From NCBI GenBank assembly GCA_001464155.1, contig LNEN01000227.1, positions 1-38,525 of the forward strand: a DNA stretch of 38,525 nucleotides. The letters are read 5' to 3'. The notes below the pieces were generated by a model. That model worked only from the letters and a program-made list of their open reading frames with translations, did not search any database and was not told where the DNA came from. Every line of letters starts with the position of its first letter. Position 1 is the stretch's first letter. The DNA is from Cytophagales bacterium Ga0077538. GTDB lineage: Bacteria > Bacteroidota > Bacteroidia > Cytophagales > Cyclobacteriaceae. Shown here piece by piece: positions 1-38,525 of this stretch. Position numbers and translations under genes: made by a program.

Positions 1-307
1 CTTCTATTTGTTCCTGTAATTCAGCAGAACCTATCAGTTTATATACCCACTTACCATCCTTATCTTTTCCTTTAACCAATTGGTTATAGTTATTCTCTTC
101 CCCCTGCCCTATTCCATCAATAATAAAGTTTCTAGGTACTTTAGCCAGAATACAAACCGCATCAATAAATTCAACAGAATCAATCGGTTTTTCCGAATTC
201 AGCCTTTCGGTAATGGTTGAATTAGTGACCTTTAAATAGTCAGCAAGCTGCTGCCTGGTCACATTAGCATCTTTTAAAACCTGCTTAATTAACTCATTTA
301 GGCTCAT
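1..307 (-). CDS. XRE/CI-like HTH repressor (partial, C-terminus off window)
   Basis: Not in the ORF track because it runs off the left edge. Reading the minus strand from ATG at 307 gives about 102 residues beginning MSLNELIKQVLKDANVTRQQ. Residues 4-60 look like an XRE-type helix-turn-helix (QQLADYLKVTNSTITERLNS is the helix-turn-helix core), as in CI/Cro repressors that hold a prophage dormant by binding operators. It is divergent from the rightward early operon, and the roughly 100 bp between them hold inverted and direct repeats that would be its operators. The C-terminal part (dimerisation or peptidase domain) is not visible, so whether it is a cleavable LexA-like repressor is unknown. 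The HTH call is from motif reading; the role as lysogeny repressor is inferred from position. Confidence 0.8.
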   Translation of the reverse strand, partial: MSLNELIKQVLKDANVTRQQLADYLKVTNSTITERLNSEKPIDSVEFIDAVCILAKVPRNFIIDGIGQGEENNYNQLVKGKDKDGKWVYKLIGSAELQEQIE

Positions 308-2417: not shown

Positions 2418-2765
2418 ATGCACATACTCGAACAAATAAAGCAACAGCAAAATGAGCACACCAGGGCAGGTGTTTGCTTCTCTAATGTTATTCAAGACCT
2501 AGAGAAGGAACTACAGCGCATGAAGGATAAAAAATTGCCACAAGATTTAATTGATGCGCGTGACAATCAAATAGAAACCCTTATTGATTTCTATAACACA
2601 ACAGACAACCTATTTCAATTTTTTAAACTAGCCACTATCAATTTGCACTCCGAACTTAAGATAACTGAAGTATTACTTATGAGCACAGCGAAGAATCGCG
2701 AGATGCTTATAGATCAATTGATGAACTTTAAAATGCAACGCCATGGCAAAGCTGAAGCGCTTTAA
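2418..2765 (+). CDS. Helical hypothetical early protein, 115 aa
   Basis: Almost entirely helical and charged (MHILEQIKQQQNEHTRAGVC, then QDLEKELQRMKDKKLPQDLI), likely a coiled-coil or bundle protein. It overlaps the start of the helicase gene by 23 bases, so the two are probably made together, and a role as helicase accessory or loader is possible from position alone. No sequence motif supports that directly. It has no membrane segment or signal peptide. Confidence 0.65.
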   Translation: MHILEQIKQQQNEHTRAGVCFSNVIQDLEKELQRMKDKKLPQDLIDARDNQIETLIDFYNTTDNLFQFFKLATINLHSELKITEVLLMSTAKNREMLIDQLMNFKMQRHGKAEAL

Positions 2766-5058
2766 AGACGAACCAACAGGGTTAGAAATAAACCTAGAAA
2801 CCGGTGATGTAACGAAGCCAGAGCCTAAAGTATGGTCAGTTCAAACAATGGCCAGCTTTGCGAGGTGTGTTAATTTGGTTGATCAGATCGTTGCAAACCA
2901 ACTAAACATCGTTGACGATACGAATGTAACCACCATCGCTTATTCTCTTGTTGAGTTTGAAGAAAAAGGTAGATCGTTATTCACTCAGGTTTGCCTATTT
3001 CAACATCAATACGAAGTCCCCTTTTTAAACAACCTCTGGCAAGAAGCACTTCAAAAAAGCAAACGCAAATCTTCCTCATTTATAAAGATTTGTAAAGAGA
3101 AAGGTTTGCAAGCTGTTATCAGCGAGGACGAAGCGTGGACCTATATTTTAAAGGAACCCGGTAAAAGTCCTCGCGATATCAGTGCTGAACTTACCGAAGC
3201 TGATTCCGAATGCATACGAGAATATCATCACCTGGAGTATGACAACTGCTACTACTTTGCGAGATACGAGCGTGATGAACTGGGTAATCCTCGAAACTGT
3301 GTTCTCGAACGTAAAAGCAACTTTGTTTTGCAGATCCTCTACCACATACAGCGAGGTAAAATTAACAAGCGGGTGGTGGTCTTGAAAAACAATCGCAAAA
3401 GAGAAGTAACCCTGGATATTGAAACCGATCAAATCACCAGCTTTCAAAAGTTCAAATCAGTAACAGAAGGCGCTGGCAACTTCCTTTTTGAAGGTACTCA
3501 GGTAGACCTTAATAAAATCAAAAACAAACTATTTGAATTAGAAAAGCCATGCGTTCAAATAGATACACTTGGCTGGCACAAAAAAGGAAGCTTCTTCACC
3601 TTTTGCAACGGCATTTACAACGCACAGTTTAGACCGGTAGATAAATACGGGATAGTACAATACGAGGAATGTAATTACTACATACCCTATCATCCAGAAG
3701 GTGAAGAAAGTATGTTCTTAAACGAGAAAAAGTTCGCCTTTAAAGACAGTGCAATTACCTGGAGCCAGTGGGCGCCCATGTACTATAAAGCCTTTGGCGA
3801 AGCGGCCATGCCATGCTTGGTATTTGCAGTGGCTACTCTTTACAGTGATGCAATATTCGCAGCTAAAAACAATTTCCCGATGCTGTTTCTGTATGGAGAA
3901 GGTGGCTCTGGTAAATCTACAGTTGTCAACTTTTTGCAATACCTATTCGGCCAACCACAGCCAGCCCTTAAGCTCAGCGAAAAAGCGAATACTGATAAAG
4001 CAAAAATCAGAAAGCTGGCACAGTTTGCCAATGCCATAGCTTGTATGGAAGAGTACATCAACGATCTCGACCTTTCAGTTAAAAAAACACTTACCGGTAT
4101 ATACGACCGTCTCGGTTACGAACGTGGTACACTCGATAGTAAGTTCGGAACAGAAACAGTACCAATTCAGTCAACCATTATTGTGACTGGCAACGAATAT
4201 CCAGATGATGATCCACTATTGCAGCGGCTTATTCTAATCGATTACAACCACAACGTTCGCACACCAGAGGTTACCAAAAACTTCGATAAGTTAGTGCAGT
4301 TAAACAGGCAAGGCATTACCTCTGTTACCGGCCAATTGCTACAACACCGCGATAGCATTATTGCAAAATGGGATCAAGTCTATCGTCAAGAATTTATCAA
4401 CCTTAAAAATGCATACACAGGGCCGATTGTTCCCGATCGCATGATCGAGAATAATGCTGTTCTGCTAGCAGTTTACAAAATACTAAACGAAGTAGGTAGA
4501 GAATGGCCATTTACATACCTACAACTCCGCGATTTTCTTATCAAAACACTCATCAGCCAGGCTGATAAGCGCGACACAGGTGCGGTGCTGCAACGCTTCT
4601 GGGATATTGTGCTAAGTCTTCTCAATAAAAAAATAATCAAGAACGGGCGAGAAATTAAAGTAGATGGCAATGAAGTAAGCATTCGCTTTAAAGAGATTCA
4701 CCTACTGTACCTGGAAGAGCACAACAAGATCTACCGCAGCAAGGGGTTAGCATCAAACACCATATTGGAAAAATTAAAAGCCAGCCGAGCCTTTGAGCAA
4801 GCAAAGAGCAATGAGCGCTTTGGTGAGAAGGTAACAAGCAGTTATGTGTTTAAGTATGATGAGCTCGGTGTAGACTTTCTTTCCATCATTAACTACCAGC
4901 ATCAAGAGGCTATGCGTTTTGCCCAGAGGGAAGAGAAGGCTAATAGTCCAACTACTGCTACAGAACTAAATTCTGAAAATGTCAAAAACAATCATTTTTC
5001 AATGACACATAATCAAATAACTGAACCTTCAAATTCATCTGATGACCTCCCATTTTAA
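2743..5058 (+). CDS. SF3/D5-like phage replicative helicase (DUF927-like), 771 aa
   Basis: The protein has a P-loop GEGGSGKST at residues 385-393 after a hydrophobic strand (FPMLFLY), a Walker-B-like acidic stretch (AIACMEEY, about 431-438) and a sensor region IVTGNEYPDDDPLLQRLILI (about 479-500). This arrangement fits the superfamily-3/D5 or DUF927-type phage helicases that unwind the origin. The N-terminal 350 residues (with LGWHKKGSFFTFCNG) match no primase motif I can see, so it seems to be helicase without an obvious primase active site. The C-terminus is a Ser/Asn-rich linker ending SSDDLPF, like the tip of bacterial SSB. The start overlaps the preceding helical gene. Directly downstream lies an iteron array, supporting an origin-helicase role. 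Confidence 0.85.
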   Translation: MAKLKRFKDEPTGLEINLETGDVTKPEPKVWSVQTMASFARCVNLVDQIVANQLNIVDDTNVTTIAYSLVEFEEKGRSLFTQVCLFQHQYEVPFLNNLWQEALQKSKRKSSSFIKICKEKGLQAVISEDEAWTYILKEPGKSPRDISAELTEADSECIREYHHLEYDNCYYFARYERDELGNPRNCVLERKSNFVLQILYHIQRGKINKRVVVLKNNRKREVTLDIETDQITSFQKFKSVTEGAGNFLFEGTQVDLNKIKNKLFELEKPCVQIDTLGWHKKGSFFTFCNGIYNAQFRPVDKYGIVQYEECNYYIPYHPEGEESMFLNEKKFAFKDSAITWSQWAPMYYKAFGEAAMPCLVFAVATLYSDAIFAAKNNFPMLFLYGEGGSGKSTVVNFLQYLFGQPQPALKLSEKANTDKAKIRKLAQFANAIACMEEYINDLDLSVKKTLTGIYDRLGYERGTLDSKFGTETVPIQSTIIVTGNEYPDDDPLLQRLILIDYNHNVRTPEVTKNFDKLVQLNRQGITSVTGQLLQHRDSIIAKWDQVYRQEFINLKNAYTGPIVPDRMIENNAVLLAVYKILNEVGREWPFTYLQLRDFLIKTLISQADKRDTGAVLQRFWDIVLSLLNKKIIKNGREIKVDGNEVSIRFKEIHLLYLEEHNKIYRSKGLASNTILEKLKASRAFEQAKSNERFGEKVTSSYVFKYDELGVDFLSIINYQHQEAMRFAQREEKANSPTTATELNSENVKNNHFSMTHNQITEPSNSSDDLPF

Positions 5059-5097
5059 CACAAAAAAGCCATGATTATTAAAAACTCGGTTTTTGAC

Positions 5098-5231
5098 TTC
5101 CTACACTTCCTACATTCCTACAAAGTGCTTTTTTTTAATAAAATCAAGCTTTTTAATGGTATTCAGTCTCGAAAAAGTGTAGGAAGTACTGTAGGAACTG
5201 TAGGACTTGTAGGAATGTAGGAATGTAGGAA
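5098..5231. other. Candidate replication origin: two inverted blocks of TGTAGGAA iterons around an AT-rich core
   Basis: Three copies of TTCCTACA lie at 5098, 5107 and 5115, and six copies of the complement TGTAGGAA lie at 5178, 5190, 5199 (variant TGTAGGAC), 5208, 5216 and 5224. The spacing is mostly 8-9 bases. Between the blocks is a 55-base AT-rich stretch with a run of eight T. The region is non-coding, immediately behind the SF3-like helicase gene. Iterons plus an AT-rich unwinding region next to the replication gene is the classic layout of phage and plasmid origins. Function is inferred; the repeats themselves are read directly. Confidence 0.7.
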
Positions 5232-5286
5232 CCCTGTTTTCTGATTTTATAGCCGTTTCCGAGATGTTTCATATAACAAATAAAAT

Positions 5287-5589
5287 ATGGATTACCCCCA
5301 ATTCTTCCACCACCGAGGCCGCTGCATCAAGCGCGAAAGCGATACCCAAGCCACCGAAGTGCGTGTGCCCGAGCCAGGCAAAATGCTGCCCCTCATGCAC
5401 ACACCAATGTCGGAGTTAGGCATTACTAAAGCCGAGCAAATAGATGCCATTGTCGCCAATATGAAAGCATGCGACCAGGCACAGTACGAAAGCTACCTGG
5501 CTATGTACTACCAGATAAGCCACAGCAACCGCCAGATTTTTAACAACTATCGTCAAAAGCAATATGAAAGCGCGCATCCTCAATCGTAA
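5287..5589 (+). CDS. Hypothetical early protein, 100 aa
   Basis: First gene after the iteron array. It begins MDYPQFFHHRGRCIKRESDT and continues with a helical half (SELGITKAEQIDAIVANMKA). No motif links it to a known family. It overlaps the next gene by 26 bases. Its position between the origin and later early genes suggests a replication or regulatory accessory, but this is only context. The 55 bases between iterons and start contain no clear Bacteroidota -7 element. Confidence 0.6.
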   Translation: MDYPQFFHHRGRCIKRESDTQATEVRVPEPGKMLPLMHTPMSELGITKAEQIDAIVANMKACDQAQYESYLAMYYQISHSNRQIFNNYRQKQYESAHPQS

Positions 5590-5931: not shown

Positions 5932-6021
5932 ATGTGTATAAAAAATGATTTGGGGAAATCACGTAAGCTGGAAGCGAGTGCTTCGAGAGTGGCGAACATC
6001 ACAAATACATTAACAATTTAA
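5932..6021 (+). CDS. Possible 29-aa mini-ORF before the SSB-tipped protein
   Basis: ATG 5932 opens a short frame (MCIKNDLGKSRKLEASASRV, 29 residues) ending 11 bases before the next gene. It is in the 130-base gap 5903-6032 and contains the small hairpin GAAGC-GAGT-GCTTC (about 5970-5983). It could be a leader peptide or chance. Coding support is weak: size only, with normal composition. Confidence 0.2.
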   Translation: MCIKNDLGKSRKLEASASRVANITNTLTI

Positions 6022-6032
6022 ACCAACACTAC

Positions 6033-6350
6033 ATGAATCAAAAACTAGAATTATTTGCAATCGTTGAACTCTTTGGCCACACCAAAATGGCGGGTAAAGT
6101 AACCGAACAATCTATTGGACCTGCCACCTTTGTTCGCGTAGATGTTCCTGAAACAACTGAGCAGCCATCGTTCACCCGGCTACTTAACCCAAGCGCTATT
6201 TATGCGATCAATCCAGTTACCGAAGAAGTAATGGAACACATGGCTAAAAACTTCTCTCAAAAACCAATCGAAAGTTGGGACATTAGAAAAATGCACGAAA
6301 AGCTATTGAGCATTGGAGCAAATCCAAAAGACGATGATCTTCCGTACTGA
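6033..6350 (+). CDS. Conserved phage protein with SSB-like acidic tip, 105 aa
   Basis: The core (ELFGHTKMAGKVTEQSIGPA, then FVRVDVPETTEQPSFTRLLN and SAIYAINPVTEEV) matches a small beta-rich phage protein family I have seen in many prophages, of unknown function. The C-terminal part is helical and the last residues are DDDLPY, close to the acidic SSB tip (DDDIPF) that binds RecQ, PriA, RecO and Pol III chi. Since the helicase ends in DDLPF, both may tap the same host partners. Start: first ATG, with an AT-rich leader. It is the last gene before the inverted-element segment. Confidence 0.7.
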   Translation: MNQKLELFAIVELFGHTKMAGKVTEQSIGPATFVRVDVPETTEQPSFTRLLNPSAIYAINPVTEEVMEHMAKNFSQKPIESWDIRKMHEKLLSIGANPKDDDLPY

Positions 6351-8767: not shown

Positions 8768-9541
8768 TTAAAACGCTATTTCTTCATAGTCATAAAATGA
8801 ATGGGCCTCTTCTTTATTACCGATGCCATTCTTCCCTTTCAATTGCTTCACCGGCCAGGCTTGCATTAAGTCTTCATCGTAGGGCTTTATTAACTCCTGC
8901 AACAATTCCTTGTCTGCCTTATCATTAAAAGGCTTTAACCAATTGCGTTCCAATTCAGGCGGCAATATTACTGGCATGCGTGGTCCCTCAGTTTGCGCCC
9001 GTTCGTTGTTGTGGATTTTTGCCATCAAACCATTTGCTTCCGTGGTTACAATGGTAGCGGTATACCGAATGCTGCCAGTGCTCTTGTCCTCCCAACGCTC
9101 CCACAATCCGGCAAAGGTCATGCTCTCATTATTTTTAAGGCTTATGTAAAAGGGATAACTCTTACCACCTATATGGTGATGTTCAAAAAATCCATCAATG
9201 CAGGTGATCAGGCACCTACGTTGTTTGGCAGCTTCCCTGAATGACGGTTTTTCAAAAATACTTTCTCCCCTGGCGTTCAAACATTGCTTGCTGAGTTTAG
9301 CTGCATCTGCAGGCGACTTCACCCAAAACGGAATAAGTCCCCAATTGTAGGGTTGAAACTCCTGTGGCTTTTCATTCGTAATAACAGGAAGCTTGGGATG
9401 TACAAATCCACTAACATAGTAGGTTGGTTGCTGCTCAACCTTTTCAAGTTTGCTTTTATACGCTTCCACATCCTCTTTGCTGCCATGTCTTTCGGCATAC
9501 TTGTAATTCTTTCTAGAGAGGTAGGATAAATCGTAACACAT
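8768..9541 (-). CDS. SRAP-domain protein (YedK/HMCES family), 257 aa
   Basis: The family uses the N-terminal Cys2, exposed after Met removal, to crosslink covalently to abasic sites in single-stranded DNA and shield them. Visible here: MCYDL start (Cys2), LNARGE (Asn89, Arg91), GFFEH (Glu120, usual form GFYEW) and AKIHN with PRMPVILPPE (His177, RMP at 188-190). About ten residues are inserted between the His and RMP compared with the short bacterial form. Length is normal for the family. It lies second in a three-gene leftward operon. In a phage it probably protects replicating DNA from abasic-site breakage. Identification is confident from motifs. Confidence 0.92.
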   Translation of the reverse strand: MCYDLSYLSRKNYKYAERHGSKEDVEAYKSKLEKVEQQPTYYVSGFVHPKLPVITNEKPQEFQPYNWGLIPFWVKSPADAAKLSKQCLNARGESIFEKPSFREAAKQRRCLITCIDGFFEHHHIGGKSYPFYISLKNNESMTFAGLWERWEDKSTGSIRYTATIVTTEANGLMAKIHNNERAQTEGPRMPVILPPELERNWLKPFNDKADKELLQELIKPYDEDLMQAWPVKQLKGKNGIGNKEEAHSFYDYEEIAF

Positions 9542-34836: not shown

Positions 34837-35401
34837 GCTGCCACGCGAACTTAAAAAAAGTAAGGATAGCGACTTCGACCGCATCTATAAGTTCTACCAC
34901 CACAGCAAAACACGCATAGAACTTAGCGCAGATGAAGAAGTAATCCGCGAGCGTTGGGAAAAGGCTTGGTTACTCATGTGCCGTGGTCGCACCGTTAAGG
35001 CGTGCGCTGATATAACGTGTCGCTTGTTCAACATAAGTCAGGCAACTGCATACGATGATGCGCGCAAGGCACAAATGCTCTTTGGCGATCCGCGCAACGA
35101 TCTGAAAGAAGCCAAGCGCAGAATCATTGAGCAACAACTACAGAACGGTGCCAACAAAGCCTGGAACAAAGGCAACTTAGACATGCACCTTAAGTACCTC
35201 AAAGAGATCTCCGAGATCAGAGGCCTCAAAGAACCAGATGCTGATACTAACCTGGCTGATTTGATGAAGAAGCTCGTGCCTACACAGATCAACATTCTGG
35301 CAAGCATGGAAGACCTCAATGCATTGGCTCAGTCCATGCGCGAGCAAATAACGAAAGACATAGGCTTCGAAGAAGTAAAAAATGAAGAAGCCAAAGGTTA
35401 A
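34793..35401 (+). CDS. Terminase small subunit candidate, 202 aa
   Basis: Directly upstream of and overlapping the large terminase by 20 bases. Residues about 67-95 (TVKACADITCRLFNISQATA) read as a helix-turn-helix used to recognise the packaging site, followed by a charged helix and an oligomerisation-like region (RIIEQQLQNGANKAWNKGNL). The length is normal for TerS. Assigned by location and HTH pattern; sequence of small terminases is poorly conserved. Confidence 0.75.
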   Translation: MEQEHSALVSSKKDKLPRELKKSKDSDFDRIYKFYHHSKTRIELSADEEVIRERWEKAWLLMCRGRTVKACADITCRLFNISQATAYDDARKAQMLFGDPRNDLKEAKRRIIEQQLQNGANKAWNKGNLDMHLKYLKEISEIRGLKEPDADTNLADLMKKLVPTQINILASMEDLNALAQSMREQITKDIGFEEVKNEEAKG

Positions 35402-36887
35402 GCAGATTGATAGGTACTTAAATCCGGTAGCGCAGATCTTTCTGCTGTGTCAGGCTATATACAAAGTTCTGATTGCTGGGCGTGGTTTTAGTAAAAGCTT
35501 TACTAATGGTTTGCAAGTAGCGGAGAAAGTGGCGCTCATGCCGCGCTCGGTAGGCTTATTCCTAAGCCCCACCTACAGCATGATCTACACCAAAACGCTG
35601 ATCCCCATGAAGGCAGCCTGGGAGCAGCACCTTGGGTACATTGAAGGCATCCATTATGTAGTAGGCAAAGCACCACCTAAGCACTTTGCCAAGCCATGGC
35701 ATAAGCCACATCGATACGAGAATGTAGTAACCTTTTGGAATGGTACCACCATTGTGTTTGGTAGCTTCGATAGGCCTGCGCTAATTTCCGGTGGATCCTA
35801 CGATTGGTCCATTTGCGATGAAGCTTACCTAATTGATAAAGACGATTATGATAACTATGTAATCCCTACCATGCGGGGAACTCACACCAGCTTCCAAAAC
35901 ATACCTACCCATTTGCAGCAAAGCTTTAGTAGCTCTATGCCCTTTCGTAACCAGGGCGATTGGTTGCTGGAATTCTATGCGAAGGCAAAAGCAGACCCGC
36001 GCATGTATGGCTTTATTGGTTGGGAACCTAACGCTAAGCTTCAACTTGGCAGCACGTGGATGAATAGAGAAGTATTGGGCGATAAAGCCATACTATCCAT
36101 GCAGGCAGAGATGAGCGAGGTAAGCTACAGAGTAATGATACTCAACCAACAGGTAACTAATTGGGGCAACCTCTTCTATCCAGCCTTAGCGGCTAAGCAT
36201 TGGTACACACCAAAGGCTAACGACCGAGTGATACAGATACCCATAAGCACAAACTATAAGCGCGATGCCCGATACGATGTAGGCCAGGATGATTACAATC
36301 CTGATATGCCCCTACACCTAAGCCACGATTGGGGTACGTTTAACTGCATCACTATTGATCAGCAGTACCCCAAGGAGATAAGGGTGATCAACACCATGCA
36401 CGTGCACAACCCTAAGACCATCGATGATCTGGCCGATGAGTTCTGCGAGTACTACCTACACCATAAGGCTAAGCTGGTATACCAATGGGGAGATAAGAGC
36501 GGTAACAACAGGCAGGCCAATGCCAAGCTCACCTACTTCGAACAGTTCTCTGAGATACTAAGAGCCAAGGGCTGGCGTGTTGTATTGAAGAAGACTGGCG
36601 ACATTGAACACCTGGAACGACACAGACTACTGGCTAAGGTACATGCAGAGACAGACACGCGCTTTCCAATCGTTCGATACAACTCAAAGTGCACAGACTT
36701 TCGTATAGCCATGGAGAGCGCTCAGATGAAGGACCACAAGAAGGATAAGAGTAGCGAAGGCAACAGCTCCATCAAGCCCGAGCATGCTACCCACTACACG
36801 GATGCACACGACTATCGCATGTACCATGCACTCAAACAATATGAGGCTAAAGACTACGGCATGGATATCTACTCTACCAACCTCTAA
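35382..36887 (+). CDS. terL: Terminase large subunit (ATPase plus nuclease), 501 aa
   Basis: ATPase: Walker A-like AGRGFSKS at residues 32-39 and Walker B SICDEAYL with Asp146-Glu147. Nuclease (RNase-H-like): LSHDWG with Asp316, WGDKSG with Asp371 and HYTDAHDY with Asp474/Asp477 as probable metal ligands. This enzyme pumps DNA into the head and cuts concatemers. It starts inside the small terminase gene. It is the last gene of the rightward block, followed by an 11-bp hairpin and the convergent integrase. Its place after the tape measure is unlike the usual terminase-first order. Confidence 0.92.
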   Translation: MKKPKVKQIDRYLNPVAQIFLLCQAIYKVLIAGRGFSKSFTNGLQVAEKVALMPRSVGLFLSPTYSMIYTKTLIPMKAAWEQHLGYIEGIHYVVGKAPPKHFAKPWHKPHRYENVVTFWNGTTIVFGSFDRPALISGGSYDWSICDEAYLIDKDDYDNYVIPTMRGTHTSFQNIPTHLQQSFSSSMPFRNQGDWLLEFYAKAKADPRMYGFIGWEPNAKLQLGSTWMNREVLGDKAILSMQAEMSEVSYRVMILNQQVTNWGNLFYPALAAKHWYTPKANDRVIQIPISTNYKRDARYDVGQDDYNPDMPLHLSHDWGTFNCITIDQQYPKEIRVINTMHVHNPKTIDDLADEFCEYYLHHKAKLVYQWGDKSGNNRQANAKLTYFEQFSEILRAKGWRVVLKKTGDIEHLERHRLLAKVHAETDTRFPIVRYNSKCTDFRIAMESAQMKDHKKDKSSEGNSSIKPEHATHYTDAHDYRMYHALKQYEAKDYGMDIYSTNL

Positions 36888-37035: not shown

Positions 37036-38301
37036 CTACCCTTTTATGAGTGCATTCATTTTGGCAAGGTCGCTATTCATTACCTTCTTATCAGTTTTGA
37101 CGTACTTTTCCAAAGTGTTCCGCTTTTTCAAACCCATGAACTTCATTAGTGAAGTGTGGTTAGCTCCGGCTTGGTCCATAAGGCTGGCAAACGTATACCG
37201 GGCCACATGATGGTGTAGGTTTACATCGATCGCAAACTTGGCAGCAATATTCTTTAATACACGGTTTGCGTATTGATCAACAAATCTGTTGAACACAGTG
37301 CCCTTCGGGTTGTCATCCAATTCATCATCTAGGAGCATTCGGGCAACATCATTAAGAGGAACCGAATCTATCTTGGTACCATATCTCTCTGTTTTTTGCG
37401 GCACTATAGTCATCTGTCCGTTGTCAAACATAGACCTGTCAAGTTTCTGTAAATCGCTTATGCGTAGTGCGCAATTGCATGAAAACAAAAACCTGCGAAG
37501 TACTACTATCTCGCTATTCGTTAATCCCTGCCTGCTATCCTTTTGCTTGTACAACATTGGCAAGGGTTGATCTTTCCACTTTAGGTATAGCTCAAGCAAG
37601 TTTTTAAACTGGCCTAGTTCTAAGGGCTTCCAGTTTCCATCCTGTAACTGGTTTTTGAAACGACTATACGGATCTGTAAACTTTATATTGTCGATTCGCT
37701 TGGCAATGTTCAAGTAGGTTTTCACATGCTTATGCCGTGGCCATCTACCATTTATGCTAATTTCCTTTTTACGCAGCTCCGGATTGATCTCAGTGTTGAT
37801 ATCTCTTTTAAGTTGCCGGTCGAAATCATTAGGCCAGTCGGCATTGAATTCATGAAAGGGTATAACGGTGTAGAACTTCTGGAGTTTTTTAAGTGTGCCC
37901 TTCTCCTTTTCGTATGTCTCGTTGGAGATCATTCCCTTATTCCACCGTTCGAATGACTTCTGCGCGTAGTATTGGATGAAATCGTTCTTATTAAGGTCAG
38001 TCTTATACTCCTTCAAAAACGATTCTAGCGATAAATGTATGCCCCTGAGCAGATAGTCCTTCCGGATGTTATTGGCCTTTGCCAGTGCGTTGCTAATGAT
38101 AATGTTATACTCATCCACATCCGGATCCTTCTTAATCCTTGGCTTGCATAGATCTCTTACGTTGAATTTCTCGGGTGGCCAACAGATTCCGAGAGGAAGC
38201 CTGGCCTTCTTCCGGTCGATAATTACCTGCATAAATATGGCGCATGTTCCATCAGTCCTTTTGTAGACTGTGTCCATCTTGATCTTAGCTGAGTATCCCA
38301 T
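37036..38301 (-). CDS. int: Tyrosine recombinase (phage integrase), 421 aa
   Basis: Bacteroidota-type integrase with N-terminal arm-binding and SAM-like domains and a C-terminal catalytic domain. Visible residues: Arg280 in CNCALRISDLQKL, Lys303 region VPQKTERYGTK, His365-x-x-Arg368 in HHHVARYTFAS and nucleophile Tyr400 in LEKYVK. The LGH position normally supplying a second His reads MGLKK (Leu391), so that catalytic residue is replaced. Integrase inserts and excises the phage at its att site. The gene reads toward the terminase; its start is four bases from a repeated TCTGAAACA motif. It marks the right end of the prophage. Confidence 0.93.
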   Translation of the reverse strand: MGYSAKIKMDTVYKRTDGTCAIFMQVIIDRKKARLPLGICWPPEKFNVRDLCKPRIKKDPDVDEYNIIISNALAKANNIRKDYLLRGIHLSLESFLKEYKTDLNKNDFIQYYAQKSFERWNKGMISNETYEKEKGTLKKLQKFYTVIPFHEFNADWPNDFDRQLKRDINTEINPELRKKEISINGRWPRHKHVKTYLNIAKRIDNIKFTDPYSRFKNQLQDGNWKPLELGQFKNLLELYLKWKDQPLPMLYKQKDSRQGLTNSEIVVLRRFLFSCNCALRISDLQKLDRSMFDNGQMTIVPQKTERYGTKIDSVPLNDVARMLLDDELDDNPKGTVFNRFVDQYANRVLKNIAAKFAIDVNLHHHVARYTFASLMDQAGANHTSLMKFMGLKKRNTLEKYVKTDKKVMNSDLAKMNALIKG

Positions 38302-38365: not shown

Positions 38366-38401
38366 ATATTCAGCGTTTTTACCCACGCTATGCAGGTTTT
38401 G

Positions 38402-38426
38402 TGCCCAGGACTGGGGCAGCTTTTTT
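38402..38426 (+). terminator. Possible rightward terminator
   Basis: TGCCCAG and CTGGGGCA (38402-38418) form a short GC-rich stem followed by GC and six T (38421-38426). No plus-strand gene is directly upstream, so it may be part of a neighbouring bidirectional structure or an att-side relic. Confidence 0.4.
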
Positions 38427-38457
38427 ACCTCATTACCAACTAGTTGTACCATCAGGT

Positions 38458-38473
38458 CAGAAACAATTCTGAA
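38458..38473. promoter_or_regulatory. Second copy of the GAAACAATTCTGAA repeat
   Basis: This copy lies in CAGAAACAATTCTGAA, where TCAGAA and TTCTGA form a six-base inverted repeat around ACAA. It is seven bases beyond the end of the neighbouring gene at 38480. Together with the copy at 38308 it brackets 150 bases holding two terminators, a plausible attachment region. Confidence 0.45.
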
Positions 38474-38479
38474 TCATTG

Positions 38480-38525
38480 TTACTCCTTACTGATCTCTTT
38501 TAGCTTCTCCGCCATTAATGCTTGC
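38480..38525 (-). CDS. 3' end of a neighbouring gene (partial)
   Basis: The minus strand reads QALMAEKLKEISKE then TAA at 38480-38482. The remainder is beyond the window. It is a helical charged C-terminus with no identifiable family. If the attachment site lies between it and the integrase, this is a host gene; otherwise it is one more phage gene. Only 14 residues are visible. Confidence 0.5.
   Translation of the reverse strand, partial: QALMAEKLKEISKE

Follow-up and report, generated by a model that had tools for sequence, protein, structure and literature searches.

A probable replication origin of PICI-like layout beside a Cch/Rep-like helicase gene in a tailed Bacteroidota prophage

The replication origins of phage-inducible chromosomal islands (PICIs) always consist of two sets of iterons around an AT-rich region (PMC6092414), and a 2018 paper called this layout unique to these elements. 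The Rep helicases of SaPIs recognise iterons located just past their own genes via their C-terminal domain, and Cch2 likewise uses its C-terminal domain to bind direct repeats just past its gene; Cch has been described as a DUF927-containing protein related to SaPIbov1 Rep (PMC7581432). Here, we analysed a 38.5-kb contig of Cytophagales bacterium Ga0077538 (hereafter the window, meaning the whole stretch of DNA), in which an array of short repeats lies at 5.1 kb. We consider it very likely that replication of a tailed, integrase-bearing Bacteroidota prophage starts at this array, and that the array is read by a Cch/SaPI-Rep-like helicase encoded just upstream.

The repeat array and the element that carries it

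The array has two blocks of opposite orientation. The left one (5098-5122, minus strand) has three copies of TTCCTACA, which reads TGTAGGAA on the minus strand, starting at 5098, 5107, and 5115. The right one (5178-5231, plus strand) has six units TGTAGGA(A/C), with TGTAGGAA at 5178, 5190, 5208, 5216, and 5224 and TGTAGGAC at 5199. Start-to-start spacings are 9 and 8 bases on the left and 12, 9, 9, 8, and 8 on the right. Between the blocks lies a core of 55 bp (5123-5177), the presumed melting site, which is 74.5% AT and includes CTTTTTTTTAAT and CTTTTTAAT. The sequence-only reading of this DNA had listed nine 8-base units at a spacing of 8 to 12 bases and a 55-base AT-rich core, and each of these items is exact. 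The core contrasts with an element that is 55% AT, as just 0.6% of the element's 55-bp segments are equally AT-rich. Still, the gaps between repeat blocks of other orientation also show an excess of AT, and the core is therefore not specific evidence for an origin.

The array is a singular feature of this DNA. It lies in non-coding DNA, 40 nt past the stop codon of the helicase gene (5058) and upstream of a co-directional gene that starts at 5287. With a detector that is blind to the unit and looks for any 7-mer that recurs on both strands in a span of about 250 bp, it was the sole inverted array in the 38.5 kb of the window. The detector counted nine copies in the real 500 bp and not one in any of 60 dinucleotide-shuffled versions of this segment. 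The 16-mer TTCCTACATTCCTACA has no second site in the host genome, even when one mismatch is allowed. The nearest exact DnaA box (TTWTNCACA) is at 5933, and none lies less than 700 bp from the array, as would suit an initiator that is self-sufficient. The GC skew has no clear switch at 5.1 kb.

Could the array work as RNA, forming a large hairpin at the 3' end of the helicase mRNA that serves as a terminator or a stability element? The RNA strand does fold stably (z of -3.57, with no shuffle equally stable), but any array of opposed repeats would fold likewise. The terminator scan gave no signal and no terminator-like site at the array, and the Rfam search returned sub-threshold hairpin matches and no family at gathering score. 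Furthermore, copy number and orientation pattern vary among the relatives described below (e.g., '--+----+++'), and the unit changes in all copies. Hence, we regard a function as RNA as extremely improbable.

The element carrying the array encodes a tyrosine integrase (37036-38301, minus strand; PF00589, 3.4e-10), a terminase large subunit (35382-36887, plus strand; phrog_2, 3.3e-15), and an S49-type head maturation protease (phrog_53), and it has a weak match to a portal protein. Judged by these genes, it is a tailed prophage, or the contig is made of one. The terminase, the head protease, and the weak portal match also rule out that the element is itself a PICI. The contig corresponds to the IMG/VR record 2623620416_000004. 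Neither of its ends matches another contig of the genome, and the two do not overlap each other. An HTH open reading frame (2-307, minus strand) runs off the left end, and the right end (38400-38525), read by eye, provides a plausible continuation, QALMAEKLKEISKE. This continuation needs about one missing base at the join and hints at a circular molecule. A gene for an SOS-response associated peptidase (SRAP; PF02586, 1.9e-49) lies on the minus strand at 8768-9541, some 3.5 kb past the array.

The helicase and its C-terminal tip

The gene upstream of the array (2743-5058, plus strand) encodes a protein of 771 aa, the presumed initiator, which matches phrog_22657 (1.7e-65) and phrog_1139, annotated as DNA primase (8e-27). 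The AlphaFold model of this AAA+ replicative helicase (pLDDT of 75) has as top PDB matches SCCmec Cch (5DGK, 6.5e-13) and SaPIbov1 Rep (8TCH, 2.3e-11), with the D5-type primase-helicases ranking behind them. Because the TM-scores of these matches, at 0.34-0.40 on the query, are modest, the likeness to Cch and Rep is one of fold kinship and not of fine detail. By predicted fold, the DUF927-type Cch/Rep group is thus the best match and the D5 type comes second. The Pfam family DUF927 is not matched by the helicase of the window; it is matched by its relative L205. The array had been placed directly downstream of an SF3-like helicase in the sequence-only reading. The position holds, whereas the protein is not a classical SF3 (D5-type) helicase: it has no D5_N domain, DUF5906 reaches only 0.003, which is below the cut-off, and the D5-type structures come after Cch and Rep. 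Many relatives are longer and have, ahead of the same helicase, a primase half that resembles DnaG (CHC2 zinc finger, DNAG_N, and Toprim). The protein of the window is the helicase half alone, without a fused primase.

Near its C terminus, the model has a predicted winged-helix domain (approximately residues 638-704, encoded at 4654-4854, plus strand), with the order strand-strand-helix-helix-strand-strand, followed by a helix and a disordered tail. By analogy with the C-terminal domains of SaPI Rep and Cch2, we presume that this domain reads the iterons. The tail finishes in SSDDLPF (5035-5055, plus strand), the last six residues of which are identical to those of the host SSB (L371), which ends in GSDDLPF. 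An end in PF or PY is a family trait, found in 23 of 30 members of the helicase family and in 5 of 371 other open reading frames (Fisher test, 1e-26). The SSB-like tip is absent from the other groups of replicative helicases that we compared (D5-type, DUF5906-type, and AAA_25). The tip of the E. coli SSB is a binding site for DnaG and numerous other proteins (PMC5872125, PMC7145534). The SDDLPF tip of the helicase probably aids in the recruitment of host replication proteins such as the DnaG primase. The partial library of literature that we searched held no report of recruitment by an SSB tip in phage initiators.

Tails of this kind are also present on small proteins. Near the array, an open reading frame of 105 aa (6033-6350) ends in the SSB-tip-like PKDDDLPY; it has a weak match to phrog_29525 and none to a Pfam family, and may be an SSB-like or replisome-docking protein of the phage. 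Small open reading frames of L130 (8526-8801), L260 (3457-3840), and L261 (3210-3614) have tails resembling it.

Arrays beside the helicases of other phages

Of 27 non-redundant helicase loci, 16 have an inverted array no more than 500 nt 3' of the helicase stop codon, as against 3 of 326 other open reading frames of the same loci (Fisher test, 6e-18). The 27 loci are a limited sample, obtained nearly entirely by protein search alone; part of it was seeded with L205 and L067, which were first met in loci with arrays, and their relatives were then chosen by protein alone. The three exceptions are displaced arrays (1.4-3 kb) in L130, L250, and L134, with none at the helicase stops of these loci. 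The remaining 11 of the 27 relatives have no array at the threshold of the detector, some of them with degenerate or displaced repeats; L132, L253, L381, and L009 carry repeats under this threshold.

The nearest relative is L005 (68% identical helicase). A search of close relatives with the same helicase had been proposed in the sequence-only reading as a check, and here the array is present, again 40 nt past the helicase stop and in the same layout. Its core has two T-run/AAT stretches similar to those of the window, and its units are all TGTAGGT instead of TGTAGGA. The change is thus common to all copies, which is what one would expect if a single cognate protein reads them. The unit TGTAGGAA is found again in L008, whose helicase is 28% identical. 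Across clades, the layout is kept with the units TGTAGGAA, TGTAGGTA, TGTAGGGAT, TGTTGGA, TGTCCGA, TGTTGAGA, and GCGAAGTAAG, and relatives selected by protein have AGTTAGTT and TCAGTAAG at the same place. Among the phages that share the layout but not the unit are cultured ones, such as Flavobacterium phage laban6-1 with TGTTGAGA.

These loci also bear on the idea that the repeats are operators, at which a repressor or the helicase would bind and control the downstream early operon, with the origin elsewhere. The array is immediately upstream of the co-directional gene at 5287, and iterons frequently double in autoregulation. Yet loci with a different downstream gene still have the array behind the helicase gene, the promoter scan gave no excess and no plus strand site in 4900-5500, and opposed blocks around an AT-rich core suit an origin better. 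We find a purely regulatory role quite unlikely.

Independently of the protein, two blind scans of viral contigs for DNA patterns, together with the window, L005, and L008, gave at least 62 non-coding TGTAGG/CCTACA arrays. Leaving out these three loci, and among the matches listed, 35 of 59 arrays were on a contig that also encodes a recognised replicative helicase: 13 of the kind in the window, 8 of D5 type, 10 of DUF5906 type, and 4 of the AAA_25 (RepA-like) type. Among these listed matches, the array was 3' of the helicase gene in 34 of the 35 contigs, and 22 had it no more than 300 nt away. The exception is L113, where it is on the 5' side. In L181 and L232, the arrays overlap the 3' end of the helicase gene and were counted as 3' from their coordinates. 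The arrays of the DUF5906 group are more distant, 1.8-3.2 kb from the helicase gene. Given that 3'-side arrays recur across four groups of helicases, an inverted iteron array 3'-proximal to the gene is a widespread feature among phages that encode replicative helicases and not a property of a single family.

The recurrence of TGTAGG itself is in part an effect of having searched for it. Among the matches listed, non-coding arrays with at least four cores were found in 44 of 120 loci for TGTAGG and in 8 of 107 for one reversed control core, and some arrays of the control core look genuine, with other units. Since protein-selected relatives use many other units, we dropped the idea of a universal TGTAGG signal. 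A profile comparison revealed no similarity between the C-terminal domains of the four helicase groups, and the common core is therefore not accounted for by a single reader domain present in all of them. A host protein or another phage DNA-binding protein (e.g., for partition) that binds the array in place of the helicase would account for TGTAGG-core arrays beside unrelated families. However, the units diverge widely among the helicase relatives (GCGAAGTAAG, TGTCCGA, TGTTGAGA), which speaks for a cognate reader that evolves along with them, and the constant feature is closeness to the 3' end of the helicase gene. We deem such a binder very unlikely. Within one library of literature, we found no earlier description of TGTAGG iterons in phages.

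Other arrays were observed along the way. In a group of phages with DUF5906 helicases (L015, L025, L066, L163, and kin), about 2-3 kb separate the helicase gene from TGTAGGTGG/TGTAGGCAG arrays. Three phage contigs reached through the control pattern (L295, L304, and L355) contain inverted ACTATCA/TGATAGT arrays in which the spacing is long and regular.

A candidate origin among known systems

The iteron-origin interpretation advanced in the sequence-only reading is therefore supported by the position 3' of the helicase gene, which is conserved, by the likewise conserved arrangement of two blocks around an AT-rich core, by the concerted change of the unit, and by the predicted Cch/Rep fold of the initiator. 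Under this interpretation, the C-terminal winged helix would bind the 8-bp units, and one helicase oligomer could assemble on each of the opposed blocks. The AT-rich core between them would melt, and two helicases would travel outward in both directions. This bidirectional loading is what we infer from the opposition of the two blocks. The tip would then provide a helicase that has no fused primase with host partners.

The layout of the origin is in itself already known from PICIs. What is new is its presence in complete tailed phages, its changing unit, and its association with an SSB-tipped initiator. One may generalise that a large group of phages, many of them from Bacteroidota, have PICI-type origins read by Cch/Rep-like helicases which, once bound at the origin, would offer SSB-docking host proteins a place to dock through their copy of the host SSB tip; we see the chances of this as evenly balanced. 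If true, the PICI origin layout would be a module shared phage-wide rather than a signature of PICIs. The occurrence of the layout in tailed phages beside kin of the same helicases bears on the source of PICI replication modules. It also provides a simple rule to find origins in uncultured phages, namely inspecting the region 3' of the helicase gene. The natural pairs of helicases and iterons are material for studies of DNA recognition, and mimicry of the SSB tip is a testable route of recruitment.

How does this candidate origin compare with those of other elements? Iteron plasmid origins (RepE, RepA, and Pi types) also have short repeats beside an AT-rich region, and typically need DnaA and a Rep that is not a helicase. 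We rejected a DnaA-dependent origin of this type, having found no exact DnaA boxes beside the iterons. The alpha protein of phage P4 shares with the window a phage-encoded helicase-initiator and short iterons; it differs in being a primase-helicase fusion and in the separate second site crr. In SCCmec, the origin is downstream of the gene, as the array is here, and Cch is the top structural match of our helicase. Cch2, in contrast, has three AAGTG iterons in one region of direct repeats, where the window has nine units in two opposed blocks. The closest systems are the origins of PICIs and SaPIs (SaPIbov1, SaPI5, and EcCICFT073). As in these, the window has two iteron sets (3 + 6 units, opposed) around an AT-rich core, 40 nt 3' of the gene of an initiator-helicase whose best fold matches, in a predicted structure, belong to the same helicase group. 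The likeness between them is one of layout and fold. The window differs in being a prophage of 38.5 kb, which encodes a terminase and a head protease of its own and is not a satellite, and in a helicase bearing an SSB-like tip.
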